A DNA stretch of 47,563 nt, taken from NCBI GenBank assembly GCA_023511675.1, contig JAIMBC010000008.1, positions 1-47,563 of the forward strand, given 5' to 3'. The translations under genes and the position numbers were made by a program. This stretch comes from Pirellulales bacterium (GTDB lineage: Bacteria; Planctomycetota; Planctomycetia; Pirellulales; JAIMBC01). The notes under the pieces were generated by a model, which was not told the DNA's origin, did no database searches, and worked only from the letters and a program-made list of their open reading frames with translations. Below are positions 36,528-47,563 of the stretch, in pieces. The number at the start of each line of letters is the position of its first letter. Positions within the stretch are counted from its first letter, which is position 1.

Positions 36528-38582
36528 ATGGGCCCCATGAGCAGCGACCAGGTATACGAATCTGTGATGGTCGAGCGGACGCGGCAGCAGATCCGCGCCC
36601 TGGTGGCTGAGATTGCCCATCTGGCCCAGCAAGACATCCAGACGCGAGACTTCTATCGCGAACTGCTCCAACGCCTGCTGCAAGCGCTCGGCGCTCCCTG
36701 CGGAGCCGTTTGGCAGCCGGGAGAGGGAGGTTCGATCGAGCTGGTCTACCAGATCAATCTCCACGAGACGCGGCTGGTGGAGAATCCCGAAGCCATGCAG
36801 CGGCACGGCCGGCTGTTGCAGCGGGCCCTCGTAACGGGCGAAGCCGCCATCGTCCCACCCCATATGGGAGACGGCCAAGAGGGCCAGCCGGGCAACCCCA
36901 CCGACTTCTTGTTGCTGTTGGGGCCAGTCCGCGTGAAGGACGAGACGCGCGGCCTGGTCGAGGTGTTCCAGCGGCCGGATACGGCGCCTACCTCCCACCC
37001 CGGCTATCTGCGCTTCGTGCGGCAAATGTGCGAGCTGGCCGCGGAGTACCACAAGAACCGGCAACTCCAGCATTATTCGCTGCGCCAAGCCCTCTGGAAT
37101 CAGCTCGAGCACTTCGCGCGGGTGGCGCACTACTCCCTGGACGTGCGCGACACGGCCTACACAATTGCCAATGAGGGCCGGCGGCTGATTGAGTGCGACC
37201 GCGTCAGCGTGGCGGTGCGCCGGGGCCGCAGATACGTCATCGAGGCGATCAGCGGGCAGGACACGTTCGACAAACGCTCCAACACGGTCAGACTGCTCAC
37301 GCGTCTGGCACAGGCCGTGGCCGTGGCGGGAGAGCCGCTCTGGTTCACCGGAGATGCTGCCAATCTGGCGCCGCAGGTGGAAGAGGCCGCGCAGGCGTTC
37401 GTCGACGAAACGCATACCAAGTGCGTGGCCGTGCTGCCGCTGCGCCGCCCGCCGCAGCCTCCCAAGGATAAGGAGCAGGATCATCTGGACGAGCAGCCCG
37501 GAGAGGTGATCGGCGCCCTGGTGGTCGAGCAGATCGAAGACGCTCGCCCGCGCGAAGGCATGGCCCAGCGCGTGGCCGTCGTGTGCGACCACGGCAGCAC
37601 CGCGCTGGCCAACGCACTGGATCATCAGGGCCTGTTTCTCATGCCCGTCTGGCGCGCGCTGAGCAAGAGCCGCGTGCTCGTCACGGCGCGGAATCTGCCC
37701 AAGACGTTGGCGGCTGCCGCCGCGCTCGTGGTACTGGTGTTGGTGCTGGTGCTGGTGCCGTACGATTTTCAACTGCGCGGCAAGGGGGTGCTGCTGCCCG
37801 TGGAGCGGCGGGACGTGTTCGCGGCCGTGGACGGTACGGTGGAACAGGTGCTGGTTCGTCATGGGGAGCGTGTGCGCCGCGGCCAGAAGCTGCTGGTGCT
37901 GCGCAACTCGGACGTGGAGGGGCAGATCGAGCATACGCTGGGAGAGATCCGCAAGACGGAATCGGACCTGGCGGGCATCCAGCGGCAACTGTTCGGAGTG
38001 GGAGGCGTGCCGCTGAGGCGGGAAGATGAGGTCAAGCTTGCCTCGGACGAGGCATCGTTGAAGAAAAAGCTGGAGAGTCTGCAGCAGCAGCTCAGGATTT
38101 ATCAAGAAAAGCAGCAGCGGTTGACGATTCGCAGTCCGATCGACGGCGTGGTGGCCACTTGGGATGTGGACCGGCTGTTGCAGTATCGGGCGGTCAAGGC
38201 AGGCGCCATTCTGCTGCATCTTGCCAATCCTGATGGAGAGTGGGAGGTGGAGCTGCACATGCCCGAGGACCGGATGGGGCACATTGCGCAGGCCCAGCGC
38301 GCTCTGGGCAAGGATCTGCCCGTGACGTATTACCTGGCCATGGACCCGGCCACGCGCCATCAGGGGAGGATCGCGGAGGTGCACCAGAGCGCTGAAGTGC
38401 GCGGAGAAGAGGGGAACACGGTGTTGGTGCGGGTGAAGATCGACCAATCGCGGTTAAGGAACATCCGTCCGGGGGCAGGGGTAACGGGCAAGGTGTATTG
38501 CGGTCGGCGTGCCCTGGGGTACGTGCTGTTCCACGACTTGGTGGCCTGGTTGCAGCGTGAGGTGGCTTTCAGGCTTTGGTAG
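36528..38582 (+). CDS. GAF-like N-terminal domain + TM + C-terminal HlyD/biotinyl-lipoyl adaptor protein
   Basis: GAF-like ERTRQQIRALVAEIAHL...LLQALGAPCGAVWQPGEGG...; TM AAAALVVLVLVLVLVPYDF; barrel-sandwich VFAAVDGTVEQVLVRHGERVRRGQKLLVLRN; coiled coil. Confidence 0.85.
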   Translation: MGPMSSDQVYESVMVERTRQQIRALVAEIAHLAQQDIQTRDFYRELLQRLLQALGAPCGAVWQPGEGGSIELVYQINLHETRLVENPEAMQRHGRLLQRALVTGEAAIVPPHMGDGQEGQPGNPTDFLLLLGPVRVKDETRGLVEVFQRPDTAPTSHPGYLRFVRQMCELAAEYHKNRQLQHYSLRQALWNQLEHFARVAHYSLDVRDTAYTIANEGRRLIECDRVSVAVRRGRRYVIEAISGQDTFDKRSNTVRLLTRLAQAVAVAGEPLWFTGDAANLAPQVEEAAQAFVDETHTKCVAVLPLRRPPQPPKDKEQDHLDEQPGEVIGALVVEQIEDARPREGMAQRVAVVCDHGSTALANALDHQGLFLMPVWRALSKSRVLVTARNLPKTLAAAAALVVLVLVLVLVPYDFQLRGKGVLLPVERRDVFAAVDGTVEQVLVRHGERVRRGQKLLVLRNSDVEGQIEHTLGEIRKTESDLAGIQRQLFGVGGVPLRREDEVKLASDEASLKKKLESLQQQLRIYQEKQQRLTIRSPIDGVVATWDVDRLLQYRAVKAGAILLHLANPDGEWEVELHMPEDRMGHIAQAQRALGKDLPVTYYLAMDPATRHQGRIAEVHQSAEVRGEEGNTVLVRVKIDQSRLRNIRPGAGVTGKVYCGRRALGYVLFHDLVAWLQREVAFRLW

Positions 38583-38594
38583 GAGGTGCGCTGG

Positions 38595-39533
38595 ATGAAG
38601 ATTGCCTGTTTGCTGTTGGCGACGGCTGCGTTGAGCGGTCCACAGGAGGGGGGTGGGGCGGCCAAGGCCCCTCGTGGGACGTTGGTGGTGGAGAAGTGCA
38701 TGCTCCAGGCGATTGACGATGTGCAGGTGCCAGCACAAGAGGCGGGCGTGATCGTGATGCTGCGTGCCAAGGAGGGCATGCAGGTGGAGGCGAACGACCC
38801 GGAGCCGCTCGCCCAGATCGATGACAGCAAGGCGCGGATGGCCAAGTTGATCGCTGAGGCGGAGAAGAAGGTGGCCGACAAGAAGGCCAAGAGCGAGGTG
38901 AACGTCGAGTATGCCAAGGCGGCGGAACGCGTGGCGGGGAAAGTGGTGGAGGCCTTTGTGAAGGCCAACGAGAAGTCCCCGGGTTCCAAGCCGCTGGTGG
39001 AGATCGAGCGTGTGCGGCTGGACCATGAGCGGACGCAGTGGCAGATCCGGCAGGCGGAACTTGACCGTGAGGTGGAAGAGCTGACGGCCGAAGCGAAACA
39101 GACGCAGGTGGACGCGGCGGAAGAGGACATCCGCCGGCGGAGGATCACGTCTCCTATTGATGGCGAGGTGGTCGAGGTTCGACCGCAACTGGGAGAGTGG
39201 GTCAATGCCGGCGATCCCGTGCTGCGCGTGATCCGGCTCAACCAGTTGCGCGTGATCGGCTTTGTAAATGCAGCGGACGTGGCTCCCTACGAACTGCACA
39301 ACCGCTCCGTGCGGTTGATCGTGGAGCTGGAGCGCGGCCGCCGGGAGGAGTTCGAGGGCCGCGTGGTATGGATCGACCCACAGCTTGCCCCCAACGGACA
39401 GTACCGTTTCTGGGCCGAGGTGGACAACCGCCTGGAGGCCAGTGGAGATTTCTGGATCCTGCGGCCCGGTCAAGAGGGGACGCTCGTGGTGGATACCAAG
39501 CTGGCTGACCGCCCCACACGCCGCAAACGCTAA
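38595..39533 (+). CDS. Periplasmic HlyD-family adaptor subunit
   Basis: Signal-like MKIACLLLATAALSGPQ; coiled coil; ITSPIDGEVVEVRPQLGEWVNAGDPVLRVIRLNQLRVIGFVN. AGGAGG at 38581-38586 precedes ATG 38595. Confidence 0.85.
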   Translation: MKIACLLLATAALSGPQEGGGAAKAPRGTLVVEKCMLQAIDDVQVPAQEAGVIVMLRAKEGMQVEANDPEPLAQIDDSKARMAKLIAEAEKKVADKKAKSEVNVEYAKAAERVAGKVVEAFVKANEKSPGSKPLVEIERVRLDHERTQWQIRQAELDREVEELTAEAKQTQVDAAEEDIRRRRITSPIDGEVVEVRPQLGEWVNAGDPVLRVIRLNQLRVIGFVNAADVAPYELHNRSVRLIVELERGRREEFEGRVVWIDPQLAPNGQYRFWAEVDNRLEASGDFWILRPGQEGTLVVDTKLADRPTRRKR

Positions 39534-39583
39534 GCCGCCCAGCAGGGCGGCCCTGGAAAGCTGCCCGCCAACGTAAATCGACC

Positions 39584-41824
39584 GTGGTCACCCTTGCTGA
39601 CAGTTTGCTCTCCAGCACGGCACGCAAGCTGGCCCTGCGCAAACGGCCCGACCTGACCGCGCGCCAGCATCGCTATCAGGGGCGAGCGTACTGGGTGGTC
39701 AAGGAGCCGGTAGGGCTGAACTACTTCCGCTTCCAGGAAGAAGAGTTCTTCATCTTGCAGCTCCTCGACGGGAACGTGAGCCTGGACGACCTCAAACAGG
39801 CCTTCGAGGCCGCGTTCCCCCCGCAAAAAATCAGCGTGGAAGAGCTGCAACAGTTCCTCGGCCTGCTCCACAAGAGCGGCCTGGTGATTGCCGACGTGCC
39901 CGGCCAGGGCCGCCAGCTCAAGCTCCGGCGAGACGAACGCGTCCGCAAGGAATGGACGGCACGCTTCACCAATCTGCTCGCCATCCGTTTCAAGGGCATC
40001 GATCCGGAAGCGATCCTCAACTGGCTGCACCCCAAGCTGGCCTGGATGTACACGCCGCCGGCCGTGGCCTGCTGCCTGCTGCTGATGCTCTCGGCCATCC
40101 TGCTGGTGCTGGTGCAATTCGACGAGTTCCGCTCCCGCCTGCCGACCTTTCACCAGTTCTTCACGCTTCAGAATGCCATCTGGCTCTCCATCGCCCTGGC
40201 GGCCACCAAAGTGCTGCACGAGTTCGGCCACGGCCTCACCTGCAAACACTTCGGCGGCGAATGTCACGAAATGGGCGTGATGATCCTGGTGCTTACCCCC
40301 TGCCTGTACTGCAATGTCTCCGACTCCTGGATGCTGCCCAACAAGTGGCATCGCGCGTACATCGGAGCCGCCGGCATGTACGTCGAGCTGATCATCGCTT
40401 CCATCTGCACCTGGATCTGGTGGTACAGCGACCCCCATACCCTGCTCAACCAACTCTGCCTGAGCACCATGTTCGTCTGCTCCGTCAGCACCGTGATCTT
40501 CAACAGCAACCCGCTGCTGCGCTATGACGGCTACTACATCCTCTCCGACCTCATCGAAATCCCCAACCTGCGGCAAAAAGCCACCGACATCCTGGCACGC
40601 AAGCTCAGCGACTGGTGCCTGGGGCTCGAACTGCCCGACGACCCCTTCCTCCCGCAACGCAACCAGTTCTTCTTCGCCCTCTACAGCGTGGCCGCCGCCA
40701 TTTACCGCTGGGTGGTCGTGTTCTCCATCATCTGGTTCCTCTACCGCATCTGGCAGCCCTATCGCCTGGAAGTGATCGGACAAGCTATGGCCCTGGTGGC
40801 CCTGTATGGGCTGTTTCTGCACCCCCTGTACAAGATGTACAAGTTCCTCAGCGTGCCTGGGAGGTTGGATCGCGTGAAGAAGGCCCGACTGTTCGGTACG
40901 ATCGGCGTGGTGGCGGTCCTGGCGGCAGCCGTGTGCCTGGTCCCGCTCCCCAACCGAGTGTTCTGCCCGCTGGAGGTGGAAGCACGCGACGCGCAAAGCG
41001 TGTACGTAGGCATGCCCGGCGGTACGCTCGAAAAGGTATATGTCCAGCCGGGACAGCGCGTGCGGCCCGGCAAGGTGCTGGCACAACTTGTCAACCTCGA
41101 TCTCGACTTGCAAATTGCCACGCTGGAGGGAGAGCTGGCCCATTACGAGGCGGAGCGAGCCAGCCTGCTGAACGCACGGTACGATAGTCCCTCGGCGGGC
41201 CTCCGCTTGCAGACGGTGGAAAGAGCCATCGAGAGCACGCGCAAGCTGTTGCAGCAGCGGCAAGAGGACAAAAAGCGCCTGCGGCTGGTAGCCCAGCAGG
41301 CCGGCGCCGTGCTGCCCCCGCCCGAGGTGCCACAAAAACCCGCGGCCGAAGGGGAGCTGCCCCATTGGTACGGCACACCCCTCGATCCACGCAACCTCGG
41401 CTGCTACCTGGAAGAGGGCCAGCTCTTCTGCCTGGTGGGAGATCCCACACGTCTGCAAGCCATCCTGATCATCCCGCAAGAGGAGGTGGAGTTCGTCTCC
41501 GTCGGCCAACGCGTCTCGCTGCGATTGGACGATCTGCCCGGGCAGGAGTTTCCCGGAGTCATCGAAGAGATTTCTCAGATCGACCTGAAGGTGACGCCGC
41601 GCCACTCCTCGAACAAGGCGCAGGGAGAGGTGCCGTCAAAGACGGACGAGTCGGGCGTGGAGCGGCCGCTGAATATCTCGTTTCAGGCCAAGGTGTACCT
41701 AGACAACCCGGACGGATTGGTGCGTCTGGGTTTCCGCGGCAAGGCCAAGATCTACGCGCGCTGGCAAACGCTGGCCCAGCGCGCCTGGCGGTTTGTCAAC
41801 CGCACCTTCCACTTCCTGCTCTAG
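39584..41824 (+). CDS. PqqD-like N-terminal region + M50 (site-2-protease-like) zinc metallopeptidase + C-terminal HlyD region
   Basis: VLHEFGHGLTCKHFGGECHEMGVMILVLTPCLYCNV, FNSNPLLRYDGYYILSDLIEIPNLR; YVGMPGGTLEKVYVQPGQRVRPGKVLAQLVN; GTG start. Confidence 0.88.
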   Translation: MVTLADSLLSSTARKLALRKRPDLTARQHRYQGRAYWVVKEPVGLNYFRFQEEEFFILQLLDGNVSLDDLKQAFEAAFPPQKISVEELQQFLGLLHKSGLVIADVPGQGRQLKLRRDERVRKEWTARFTNLLAIRFKGIDPEAILNWLHPKLAWMYTPPAVACCLLLMLSAILLVLVQFDEFRSRLPTFHQFFTLQNAIWLSIALAATKVLHEFGHGLTCKHFGGECHEMGVMILVLTPCLYCNVSDSWMLPNKWHRAYIGAAGMYVELIIASICTWIWWYSDPHTLLNQLCLSTMFVCSVSTVIFNSNPLLRYDGYYILSDLIEIPNLRQKATDILARKLSDWCLGLELPDDPFLPQRNQFFFALYSVAAAIYRWVVVFSIIWFLYRIWQPYRLEVIGQAMALVALYGLFLHPLYKMYKFLSVPGRLDRVKKARLFGTIGVVAVLAAAVCLVPLPNRVFCPLEVEARDAQSVYVGMPGGTLEKVYVQPGQRVRPGKVLAQLVNLDLDLQIATLEGELAHYEAERASLLNARYDSPSAGLRLQTVERAIESTRKLLQQRQEDKKRLRLVAQQAGAVLPPPEVPQKPAAEGELPHWYGTPLDPRNLGCYLEEGQLFCLVGDPTRLQAILIIPQEEVEFVSVGQRVSLRLDDLPGQEFPGVIEEISQIDLKVTPRHSSNKAQGEVPSKTDESGVERPLNISFQAKVYLDNPDGLVRLGFRGKAKIYARWQTLAQRAWRFVNRTFHFLL

Positions 41825-41946: not shown

Positions 41947-42324
41947 CTGCTCATTTCCACGTCAGGCGTCAACAACTCGCCAGACCTCAGGCGCAACAGC
42001 GCGTCGCGGAGGCTCCTCGATTGACCCATCGCCTCCAGCGTCTTGTACCGCCGCCAGCACCAGGGGCGACCTCGCGGCAGCCGCAGCCTGCCTGCCATCA
42101 AAGCTTATGCCAGCGGCTTCTCTTATCTATTCTCACGCCTCCAGCCATACCTCTCACCTTATGCACCTTGCCAGGTAAGCACGTCGCCCGTGCCATCTGT
42201 GAGCTGTGGCTGCAACAAGGCCGCCCGTATGGACGATATCGACTGCAAGGCTTGCCCGAAGTGCGATCTTACCGCACCTTCACGGGTGCAGGCCGCTGCT
42301 CGTGGGGAAGACGACGTGCCTGCC

Positions 42325-44817
42325 ATGAAAGACGGTCCCCGCCCGCTCGGGCGGGTGCGCCAGCGTACTCCGCGGCCATTTTACAGCCGCATGGCCTTCC
42401 GCATCCTGCTGCTGGTGGCCTTTGCGTGGCCGTTCTGTTTCTCCGGAGCCTTTCGCGCGCTGATCAACAAGCGTGACGATGTGGCGAGCTGGCTGCCGGC
42501 ACGCTATCCCGAAACGCGCCTGCTGCAATGGTTTCAGCAGCATTTTGCTGACGAGCAGTTCATCCTGGTTTCCTGGGAGGGCTGTACGCTGGGCGAGTCG
42601 GCCGCGGAGGACGATCAACGCTTGCGGCTGCTGGTGAAGAAGCTGTTTCCCACGGTGAGTAACGAGGAGTTGGCCGCTCGACGTGCGCCGCCCCAGTACT
42701 TCAAGAAGGCGATCACCGGTCGTGATGCCATCCAGCGATTGACCAGCCCTCCCATCAAGCTGGCGGAACTGGAGGCGCGGCAGCGGCTGCGCGGCTCGCT
42801 GGTGGGACGGGATCTCAAGCAGACCTGCCTGCTCTTGGTGCTGTCCAGCGAAGGGATGCAAGACGTGCGCAAGACCGTGGCGCACGTTCGCCGGGTTGCC
42901 TGTGGAGAGTGCGGCATCCCCGAGGCGGATCTGCACATGGGTGGGCCTCCGGTGGATAACGCCGCCATCGATGAGGCGGGGCAGACCAGTCTGTATCGCG
43001 TGGCGGGACTGGCCGTGCTGATCGGCTCGATCATCTCGTGGTGGTGCCTGCGGAGCGCGCGGCTGATCTTGATGGTGTTCGCAGGCGGATTGATGGCGGG
43101 CGCCGCCAGCATGGCCATTGTGTGGTTTTCCGGCGGCACGCTGAACGCCATTTTGCTGACCATGCCGTCGCTGGTGTACGTAGCCACAATCTCCGGCGCC
43201 ATCCATTTGGCCAATTACTACCGAGACGAACTGCGTCGCGGGGTGAGTCCCGAGGAGGCGCCGGGGCGTGCCATGCAGCATGCCTGGCTGCCGCTGTGCC
43301 TGGCTACGCTCACCACGGCCACCGGCCTGCTCACGCTCTGTTACAGCGAGCTGGTGCCCATCCAGAACTTCGGCCTGTATTCGGCGATCGGGGTGGTGGT
43401 CAGTGCCGTGATCCTGTTCTTGTATCTGCCCGCCGCGTTCCAGCTCTGGCCCTTGCAGCCGCAGCAAGAAGAGCAAGAGGCTCTCTTCGATCCCTTTCTC
43501 TCCAAGCGTTGGCGGCTGGTGGGCTGGGGCGTGATCCACAGGCACTGGCTGGCTGCTTTCGCCACACTTGCCATCCTGGCTGCCTGCGGCTACGGCATGA
43601 CCCGCATCAAGACCTCGATCCATCTGATGCGGCTGTTTCCGCCCGATGCCCGCATTCTGGCGGACTACCGCTGGCTAGAGGAACGCCTGGGCGAGCTGGT
43701 GCCGCTGGAAGTGGTCGTGAAGATCAACCAGGATCCCGCCGTCTGCCCTCTGAACTTCCTGGAACGGATGGAGCTGGTGGGGCGCATTCAGCAGCAGATG
43801 CAGAACGTGCCGGAAGTCGGCAGCAGCCTGTCGGCCGTGACCTTTGCACCGCGGCTGCCCCGTCCCGAAGACTACCGCCGCAAGGGCGGCATTCTGGGCA
43901 CGCTGCGCCGCATGGCCGTGCGCGATGAGTACCAGACCGCACGCCGGATGTACAACCAGAAACTATCGGAGCACCGCCATGAGTATCTCGAAGAGGACTA
44001 TCTGGCGGAGGAGGCCGGCCACGACCTGTGGCGGATCAGTGCACGCGTCGGCGCCTTGCAAGATGTGGATTACGGGCAGGTCATGGCTGACATCCGGCAG
44101 GCCGTGGAACCGGTGTTTGCCGAGTTGCGCCAGCAGGGCGTGCAGGGGATCGAGCCTATTTATACGGGCCTGGTGCCGCTGGTGTACAAGGCGCAGCGCT
44201 CGCTGATGGACGGTTTGGTGTTCGGATTCGTCACGGACTTCATCCTGATCACGCTGGTGATGATGCTGGCCGTCAGGGACTGGTCGGCTGGGCTGATTCT
44301 GGCGCTGCCCAGCATCTTCCCGGCGGTGGTGGTGTTCGGGCTGATGGGCTGGCTGGGAATCGTCGTCGATATTGGCACGGTGATGGCTCCCAGCGTGGCA
44401 CTGGGGGTCACCGTGGACGACGTGGTGCACTTCATGCTCAAGTGCCGCCGCGGTTTAAAGGAGGGTCGGTCTCGCCGGTCGTCGGTGATGCTGGCGTACA
44501 AGGGGTGTGCCCGGGCCATGTACCAGAGCTGGGGAGTGATTGGGCTGGGCCTGTCAGTATTTGCCCTCAGCCCCTTTACACCCACGCAGCGCTTCGGCTA
44601 CCTGATGGTCTCGCTGCTCACGGCGGCGCTGGTGGGCAATCTGGTGCTGCTGCCGGCGCTGCTCTCCGGCCCGCTGGGTGCCCTCTTCGGCCGCCGTTAT
44701 CGCAGGCTACGCTGGCAACGCTTGCAGCTTTGGCGAGAAGAGGCGCGGGCACACTGCGACACGCCGGGGCCCCAGCTCATTCACCTGGAAATGCTGCGCC
44801 GGAGCAAGACGGCGTGA
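42325..44817 (+). CDS. MMPL/RND-superfamily (SSD-like) transporter
   Basis: Multiple TM helices: FRILLLVAFAWPFCFSGAF, VAGLAVLIGSIISWWCLRSARLILMVFAGGLMAGAASMAIVWF, VMAPSVALGVTVDDVVHFMLKCRRGLKEG. Alternative in-frame start at 42229. Confidence 0.88.
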   Translation: MKDGPRPLGRVRQRTPRPFYSRMAFRILLLVAFAWPFCFSGAFRALINKRDDVASWLPARYPETRLLQWFQQHFADEQFILVSWEGCTLGESAAEDDQRLRLLVKKLFPTVSNEELAARRAPPQYFKKAITGRDAIQRLTSPPIKLAELEARQRLRGSLVGRDLKQTCLLLVLSSEGMQDVRKTVAHVRRVACGECGIPEADLHMGGPPVDNAAIDEAGQTSLYRVAGLAVLIGSIISWWCLRSARLILMVFAGGLMAGAASMAIVWFSGGTLNAILLTMPSLVYVATISGAIHLANYYRDELRRGVSPEEAPGRAMQHAWLPLCLATLTTATGLLTLCYSELVPIQNFGLYSAIGVVVSAVILFLYLPAAFQLWPLQPQQEEQEALFDPFLSKRWRLVGWGVIHRHWLAAFATLAILAACGYGMTRIKTSIHLMRLFPPDARILADYRWLEERLGELVPLEVVVKINQDPAVCPLNFLERMELVGRIQQQMQNVPEVGSSLSAVTFAPRLPRPEDYRRKGGILGTLRRMAVRDEYQTARRMYNQKLSEHRHEYLEEDYLAEEAGHDLWRISARVGALQDVDYGQVMADIRQAVEPVFAELRQQGVQGIEPIYTGLVPLVYKAQRSLMDGLVFGFVTDFILITLVMMLAVRDWSAGLILALPSIFPAVVVFGLMGWLGIVVDIGTVMAPSVALGVTVDDVVHFMLKCRRGLKEGRSRRSSVMLAYKGCARAMYQSWGVIGLGLSVFALSPFTPTQRFGYLMVSLLTAALVGNLVLLPALLSGPLGALFGRRYRRLRWQRLQLWREEARAHCDTPGPQLIHLEMLRRSKTA

Positions 44818-45853: not shown

Positions 45854-47218
45854 CTATGCCAAAGCCTGGGTCGCCACCGCCGATGGGGCGGGCCGAGCTG
45901 CCGGCGCCATCATCACCGTGGTAAAGTAGCTCTGCACCGCACGATCGAAATACTCCGGCCGCATCTCCAGCGGCAGATCGTTGTACACGCAGTAATTGCG
46001 AATCTGGCCCAACAGGTCGCGCGGATGGCAGCGCCGCAACCGCCTGCCAACTGCAAAGTAGTGCCGAGCTAGCAGATCATCGACCACCTCCGGAGCATAG
46101 GCAAAGCCCATGGCGGCACACCAGCGGGCAAAAAGCTGGTGGAACTCCTCCGGCGGCGGGTCGGTCACGTGAATCTTGTAAGGAATGCGGCGCAAGAACG
46201 CTTCGTCTACCAGGTCGGCCGGATCTAGATTGGTGGAAAACAGGATCAGCTGATCGAACGGCACCTGAATCTTCTTGCCCGAGGCCAGCGTCAGAAAGTC
46301 ATACCGCTTCTCCAGCGGCACGATCCAGCGGTTGAGCAGCTCGCACGGCTGCACGCGCTGCCGGCCAAAGTCGTCGATCAAAAGCGAGCCGCAATTGCTC
46401 TTGAGCTGCAAGGGCGCCTCGCTCACGTTGCTCTTGGGGTCGTGGCGGATCTCGAGGCTGTCGAGAGTCAGCTCGCCCCCGGCGATGACCGTGGGGCGGC
46501 GGATCTTCACCCAGCGGCGGTCATGGTCCGCACGCTTCAACACGCTGTCCCCGCCTTCAGCGACCGCCTCGTGATACGCCGGATCGTACAGCTTGATGAG
46601 CTGCCCGTCTTCCACCAGCGTCCGCGGGATCCAGACGTGTTGGCCAAAACAGCGGGTGATCCGCTCCGCCAAGGTCGTCTTCCCGTTGCCGGGAGCCCCG
46701 TACAGGAACAGCCCAGCACCCGAATTGATCGCCGGCCCCAGAGCATCAAACAACACAGGATCGATGGTGATGTCGCTAAACGCCTGCTCGAGCTGCGCCC
46801 GACGCGGCGCCTCCGCCCGGATCGACTGAGCCTCCACCGACAGCACATACTCCTCCAGCGGAACCGGCGCGGGACCCACATAAGCGCAGGCCTCCGTAAA
46901 CAACTGCGCCCGCTGGCGGCCCTGGTCGGTCAGGGCATAGTAATAGTCATTCAGCGGGGCCGCCCCCGTATGGGTCACGAATTGCCGTTGGCGCAGTCGC
47001 TGCAACTCCCCCTCCAGCACTCCGTAAGGCAGGCAGAGCCGCTCGGCCAGCGTGCGCCCGCTGGCCTGCCCGCCCGCCAGCAAATGCTTGCATATCAAAC
47101 TCTCCACCAACGGCTCGCTCAGCCCCGTTTCGGCCAACGTGCTCGGCTCAGCCGGCTTGAACGTCTCCTCGGCCAGGATCGCGGCCAGTAGATTTCCCTG
47201 CTCAAGAGTGGCAACCAT
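45854..47218 (-). CDS. AAA-family ATPase with N-terminal helical/winged-helix-like region
   Basis: Walker A LYGAPGNGKTTLAERI, Walker B CGSLLIDDFGRQ, sensor LILFSTNLDPADLVDEAFLRRI; start MVATLEQGNLL. Confidence 0.85.
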   Translation of the reverse strand: MVATLEQGNLLAAILAEETFKPAEPSTLAETGLSEPLVESLICKHLLAGGQASGRTLAERLCLPYGVLEGELQRLRQRQFVTHTGAAPLNDYYYALTDQGRQRAQLFTEACAYVGPAPVPLEEYVLSVEAQSIRAEAPRRAQLEQAFSDITIDPVLFDALGPAINSGAGLFLYGAPGNGKTTLAERITRCFGQHVWIPRTLVEDGQLIKLYDPAYHEAVAEGGDSVLKRADHDRRWVKIRRPTVIAGGELTLDSLEIRHDPKSNVSEAPLQLKSNCGSLLIDDFGRQRVQPCELLNRWIVPLEKRYDFLTLASGKKIQVPFDQLILFSTNLDPADLVDEAFLRRIPYKIHVTDPPPEEFHQLFARWCAAMGFAYAPEVVDDLLARHYFAVGRRLRRCHPRDLLGQIRNYCVYNDLPLEMRPEYFDRAVQSYFTTVMMAPAARPAPSAVATQALA

Positions 47219-47563
47219 GGCAAGAATGCGGGGGTATATACTTGCGGACGCTGCGCCTGCCCAGTCACGGTGTTGGACGAGAGGGCCGCATTCCAAGTGT
47301 AGTTTGTACTAGGGTACGCGGCGGCAAACATCTGTAGGAACGCCTACCGCCCCGTTCCACCCAAATCTGCAATCGTAACCCATTGGCCCCCAACGAGATG
47401 AGCCGTAACTTTCCATCCAGGCCCGCGCTGGCACCCTGCTGGCCATGCAAGCTGCGGCTCGCCGTGGCGAAGGATAGGGGCAGAGCAGTCCTGGCGTGGT
47501 TTCTCCAAAAACACAGGCTCTTCCGGTTTTAGGTGCAGAACGCGAGAAAGACGGCCTTTAGGC

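Follow-up and report, generated by a model that had tools for sequence, protein, structure and literature searches.

A conserved three-gene cassette of Pirellulales as a candidate export system for large proteins with an LExR leader

In 2015, Kamneva, Poudel and Ward described a gene module of Planctomycetes, Verrucomicrobia and Proteobacteria in which GAF-HlyD, M50-HlyD and HlyD/biotin_lipoyl proteins are set around a secondary SecA_DEAD protein, proposing a role in secretion while calling its broader biological role completely unknown (PMC4452313). The partners of the module were regarded as possibly encoded apart, and the main text of that paper proposes no substrate, leader, PqqD domain or DUF3467 partner (PMC4452313). 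Here, we analyse a cluster of three genes, P1, P2 and P3, in a 47,563-nucleotide stretch of a Pirellulales genome (contig JAIMBC010000008.1 of assembly GCA_023511675.1; hereafter the window), which, judging from its context and composition, very probably functions in export. The cluster is a variant of the 2015 module with a separated ATPase gene and not a full member of it. The two share the combination of GAF and HlyD (P1), Peptidase_M50 and HlyD (P3) and a further HlyD protein (P2), as well as the same phyla, and Blastopirellula marina DSM 3645, an organism named in the paper, contributes a cassette to our loci (L101). The paper also gives an operon of Methylobacterium extorquens AM1 (META1p2399-2402). 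However, the secondary SecA_DEAD gene lies in the neighbourhood of the described module, whereas none is present in the window. With regard to whether the system was already characterised, the gene set had thus been reported, but as an uncharacterised module (PMC4452313).

Other described systems also resemble the cluster in part. As in type I secretion systems (HlyB-HlyD-TolC), HlyD-type adaptors are present, here in all three proteins, a TolC-family protein occurs in several homologous loci and the candidate substrates are large and repetitive; however, no ABC transporter ATPase is encoded among the flanking genes, the proposed signal is N-terminal instead of C-terminal, and an adaptor is fused to a protease. 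The M50 core and N-terminal region of P3 (residues 28-411, 188 bits) are similar to the daptide and epipeptide M50 proteases (NF041824, NF058609), but P3 scores below the cut-off and carries an extra HlyD adaptor, and no peptide precursor gene was seen. MacA-type adaptors give the best PDB fold matches to the adaptor parts of P1 and P3, although the cluster has no MacB or AcrB partner and joins its adaptors to GAF domains or a protease.

Conservation of the cassette and its link to LExR proteins

Homologues of P3 are present in 56 of 58 Pirellulales genomes, and the order P1-P2-P3 is complete in 50 of the 52 Pirellulales loci that have sufficient upstream DNA (80 loci examined), with P2 immediately upstream of P3 in 63/69 loci. 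The three genes are therefore not routinely separated in other genomes. No additional conserved neighbour was found over the 80 Pirellulales loci, where other gene clusters recur in at most 12 loci; since the outer genes are unconserved, the unit consists of P1-P2-P3 alone. An apparent neighbour formed by an open reading frame (ORF) cluster of 21 loci was judged to be an artefact, its example sitting on the strand opposite P2. In five planctomycete metagenome-assembled genomes (L099, L103, L106, L109 and L111), P3 lacks a recognisable P2 just upstream, and in two of these (L106 and L111) P1 is also missing within the locus DNA examined. Three Pirellulales genomes (G042, G047 and G051) each contain 10-14 P3-related matches as well as several genes for a secondary SecA, a multiplicity that suggests parallel systems, each with its own cargo.

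The candidate cargo came from homologous modules on proteobacterial plasmids. Among the 11 loci read, eight have the module immediately 3' of a 7-39 kb gene (Pseudosulfitobacter, 38.8 kb; Pontibrevibacter, 31.8 kb; Methylosinus, 26.5 kb; Azospirillum TSH58, 14.9 kb; E. coli, 13.4 kb; Azospirillum TSA2s, 13.0 kb; Thalassospira, 12.1 kb; Kosakonia, 7.0 kb), one (Magnetospirillum) has an upstream gene of just 1.5 kb, and two were impossible to judge. Seven of the eight giant proteins open with a motif that we call LExR (consensus E-x-L-E-P-R-x-L-L-S-A, with substitutions allowed), mostly behind a basic stretch and in forms such as LEPRFLLSADP, MEPRVLLSADP, LEPRMLFDGA and LESRQLFDGA; for the eighth, from Azospirillum TSA2s, the annotated start may be wrong. 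The 15-residue hydropathy maximum of the N-termini is 0.6-1.1 in six of the giants, mostly far under signal-peptide level. Within the Planctomycetota, a LExR giant adjoins the module in two genomes (G103 and G192), a 2039-residue LExR protein is encoded just downstream of P3 in another locus (L040), and the same motif begins further large proteins, including three of secreted type in the window genome (SdrD-like, subtilase and amylase). In E. coli, a near-identical M50-HlyD gene is found in 24 of 5426 complete genomes, mostly plasmid-borne; in NZ_CP104683.1 (L122) it follows the 13.4-kb gene of an Ig-like protein, a TolC-family gene and two adaptor genes.

Co-occurrence was assessed in 196 Planctomycetota genomes, using a threshold of >80 bits for P3 homologues and the model NF012209 for LEPR-type motifs. 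P3 was present in 46 genomes, NF012209 in 21 and both in 19 (Fisher P 5e-12), and the association also holds outside the class of the window (P 6e-9) and at family level, where 19 of about 64 families have P3 and these include all nine with LEPR (P 3e-6). Two genomes with LEPR matches but no P3 (G188 and G206) are kept as exceptions. A broader LExR profile gave 9-41 matches, mostly in long ORFs, in eight P3-positive genomes and 0-5 in 12 P3-negative ones; a few of the matches in G000 and G016 are circular, as their sequences helped to build the profile. Near secondary SecA (SecA2) genes, four LExR matches were counted in 0.24 Mb, a count that is not independent because three of the four helped to build the profile. 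From this linkage and co-occurrence, the LExR proteins are reasonably likely to be the substrates of the exporter.

A small protein, DUF3467, behaves as a further partner of the cassette by its distribution, being present in 21 of 22 Pirellulales genomes and in none of nine P3-negative genomes. Its gene lies within the operon in three Alphaproteobacteria (L121, L230 and L233) and beside a 2429-residue LExR gene in G012, while in G000 it is located at C312:8895-9155 (L261:3470-4204). The family is also found in unrelated organisms and is thus not specific to the cassette.

Several observations weigh against this interpretation. In 27 of the 46 P3-positive genomes there is no match to NF012209, although this model misses diverged motifs, and P3-positive genomes differ phylogenetically from the P3-negative ones. 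Around the Pirellulales cassette, LExR genes show no enrichment (1.7 per Mb), and one cassette therefore probably serves many LExR proteins in trans. The N-terminus of the Methylosinus giant reaches a hydropathy of 1.75, close to the 1.7 of the likely signal peptide of P2, so that hydropathy alone cannot exclude a Sec signal in this protein. Further, SecA2 was found neither in the window nor in the 94.6% complete assembly of the window genome, and the PqqD scores of P3 lie under the curated cut-off.

Protein architecture and the proposed export route

As the original prediction had it, the cluster comprises three consecutive plus-strand genes separated by 12 bp (3 bp if P2 starts at the alternative GTG) and 50 bp, no ABC, MFS or TolC gene flanks it according to Pfam searches of the window, and each protein has an HlyD region, with HlyD_3 matches exceeding the cut-off in P1 (E 6e-14), P2 and P3 (E 3e-9) (Table 1). 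The GAF-like region that was predicted as a sensor in P1 is also present, except that there are two GAF domains instead of one (Pfam, E 1.1e-9; AlphaFold2). The AlphaFold2 model of P1 has a mean predicted local distance difference test score (pLDDT) of 85 and a predicted template modelling score (pTM) of 0.39, leaving the relative placement of its domains uncertain. P2 starts with MKIACLLLATAALSG and has the likely Sec signal peptide mentioned above.

Table 1 Features of the P1-P2-P3 cluster and their positions in the window.
Feature	Position	Strand	Basis
P1, GAF-GAF-TM (transmembrane)-HlyD adaptor, 684 residues	36528..38582	+	ORF; two Pfam GAF and HlyD_3; AlphaFold2; nearest PDB fold MacA (Foldseek)
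P1 first GAF domain (about residues 31-148)	36618..36971	+	Pfam GAF 41-172; AlphaFold2 secondary structure
P1 second GAF domain (about residues 206-334)	37143..37529	+	Second Pfam GAF stretch; AlphaFold2 secondary structure
P1 sole TM helix (residues 388-418)	37689..37781	+	Hydropathy
P1 HlyD-type adaptor part (residues 411-662)	37758..38513	+	Pfam HlyD_3, HlyD_D23; AlphaFold2
P2, periplasmic HlyD-type adaptor	38595..39533	+	ATG start (GTG 38586 alternative); HlyD_3 E 2.8e-18
P3, PqqD-like/M50 zinc protease/HlyD fusion, 746 residues	39584..41824	+	ORF, Pfam, alignment, AlphaFold2
P3 PqqD-like (RRE-type) domain (about residues 15-103), predicted cytoplasmic	39626..39892	+	PF05402 in orthologues; AlphaFold2
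P3 polytopic M50 core (residues 154-461)	40043..40966	+	Pfam M50; hydropathy; AlphaFold2 helices
P3 HEFGH zinc motif (residues 212-216)	40217..40231	+	H212, E213 and H216 invariant in 40/40 orthologues
P3 NPLLRYDG motif, third zinc ligand D315	40508..40531	+	N309, P310, D315 and G316 invariant in 40/40 orthologues
P3 HlyD-type adaptor part (residues 462-729)	40967..41770	+	HlyD_3, HlyD_D23; Foldseek MacA E 8e-13

The polytopic zinc-protease core attributed to P3 is borne out by a Peptidase_M50 match above the cut-off (E 2.5e-7) and by the motifs H212-E213-x-x-H216 and N309-P310-x4-D315-G316. HExxH and the third-ligand aspartate are also retained in 11/11 distant proteobacterial homologues; many Planctomycetota homologues in that comparison had been translated in an incorrect frame or strand and were set aside. 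Since the zinc ligands and the catalytic E213 are kept in this way, the predicted proteolysis appears to be under selection. For the claimed PqqD-like domain, the match is weak in single sequences yet consistent: PF05402 (PqqD) recurs in 20 of 22 P3 orthologues with E values of 1 or lower (2e-5 at best), but the window protein scores 15.9 bits, less than the gathering cut-off of 23.4. A PDB profile search with the N-terminal domain returned PqqD (3g2b) as the top match, weak at E 0.44. The AlphaFold2 model (mean pLDDT 80; pTM 0.53, so that the mutual placement of domains is uncertain) has a small N-terminal domain of beta strands followed by three helices, the polytopic core and the adaptor, and because of the membrane-helix count the PqqD-like domain should be cytoplasmic and the adaptor periplasmic.

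The cluster does lack an ABC ATPase, but its likely motor is encoded apart, the missing ATPase probably being the secondary SecA. Of 47 Pirellulales genomes, 46 have a short SecA2, in most cases away from the cassette, and in three genomes (G010, G014 and G031) its gene directly adjoins the orthologous P1. No SecA2 is annotated within the module loci of E. coli, Azospirillum and Kosakonia, and another motor may therefore replace it in these forms. The window genome has 14 matches to OEP (the TolC family), none of them inside the window.

On balance, we favour a reading in which P1-P2-P3 form the inner-membrane and periplasmic core of an exporter for large surface or secreted proteins with a LExR leader. 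The cargo would carry the short N-terminal leader in place of a Sec signal, and the cytoplasmic PqqD-like domain of P3 would capture it in the way that RiPP recognition elements (RREs) capture the leader peptides of ribosomally synthesised and post-translationally modified peptides (RiPPs). Force would be supplied by SecA2, encoded elsewhere in most Pirellulales, and the HlyD parts of all three proteins would form a periplasmic conduit to a TolC-type channel whose gene also lies elsewhere. The leader would be cut at the membrane by the M50 site of P3, and the GAF pair of P1 might tune the activity to some signal. Both leader capture by the PqqD-like domain and leader cleavage by the M50 site are proposed by domain analogy and are put forward tentatively, being somewhat less probable than not. 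The protease-coupled export machine that had been suggested from the window fits these findings.

The gene that follows P3, encoding an MMPL/RND protein (42043-44817), was considered as a member of the system and rejected, as it adjoins the cassette in 0/80 related loci. A scan for sigma-70 promoters and terminators gave nothing exceeding shuffled sequences. Further downstream, positions 45854-47296 of the minus strand encode a 480-residue P-loop ATPase, for which no Pfam family exceeds its cut-off.

Alternative functions of the module

The same domains could serve envelope signalling, if the M50 protease cleaved a membrane-bound regulator by regulated intramembrane proteolysis while the HlyD parts sensed or tethered the envelope and the GAF domains bound a ligand. 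The intact M50 active site, the tandem GAF domains of P1 and the lack of an adjacent exporter ATPase gene would all suit such a role, but the neighbourhood has no conserved gene for a regulator or a sigma/anti-sigma factor, GAF is undetectable in the adaptors of some related modules (E. coli L122 and Thalassospira L230), and the three adaptors, TolC and SecA2 in homologous loci, together with the upstream giant genes, point to export; we consider signalling unlikely. Equally improbable is that P3 acts on a short precursor, like the daptide and epipeptide proteases, in the maturation and export of a RiPP-like peptide or small molecule whose product leaves through the adaptors. Although P3 has a PqqD-like domain and its best curated match is the daptide metalloprotease model NF041824, that match of 188 bits is below the 300-bit cut-off, no small ORF or modification enzyme recurs over the 80 loci (ORFs of <80 residues were uncalled), and giant genes are found in homologous loci instead.

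Kamneva et al. proposed that the M50 core is itself the membrane pore (PMC4452313), in which case protease activity would be incidental. The core is indeed polytopic (AlphaFold2, hydropathy) and the module has no other inner-membrane channel gene (PMC4452313), but a mere pore would have no need of the zinc ligands and catalytic glutamate, which do not vary among 40 orthologues and persist in 11 distant homologues. An incidental protease is for this reason quite improbable, slightly more so than the preceding two possibilities, and pore and protease roles could coexist. Returning to the LExR exporter, it may constitute a separate kind of secretion system, leader-guided and protease-coupled, with PqqD/M50/HlyD fusions and, in most forms, a SecA2 motor. 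It would export many LExR proteins in each planctomycete cell and, in Proteobacteria (some E. coli plasmids included), single giant proteins of adhesin-like type. We hold this classification provisionally, at a little under even weight.

In the open-access literature we found no proposal of the module's cargo or leader signal, although other papers might hold the link, and no account of the export route of the giant surface proteins of planctomycetes and other bacteria that open with LExR and have no clear Sec signal. The new element is thus the link between the module and large LExR-marked proteins, which gives a testable secretion hypothesis. Through the shared short leader a conserved module is tied to giant proteins, so that both the way these proteins are exported and the function of the 2015 module become testable in tractable laboratory strains.

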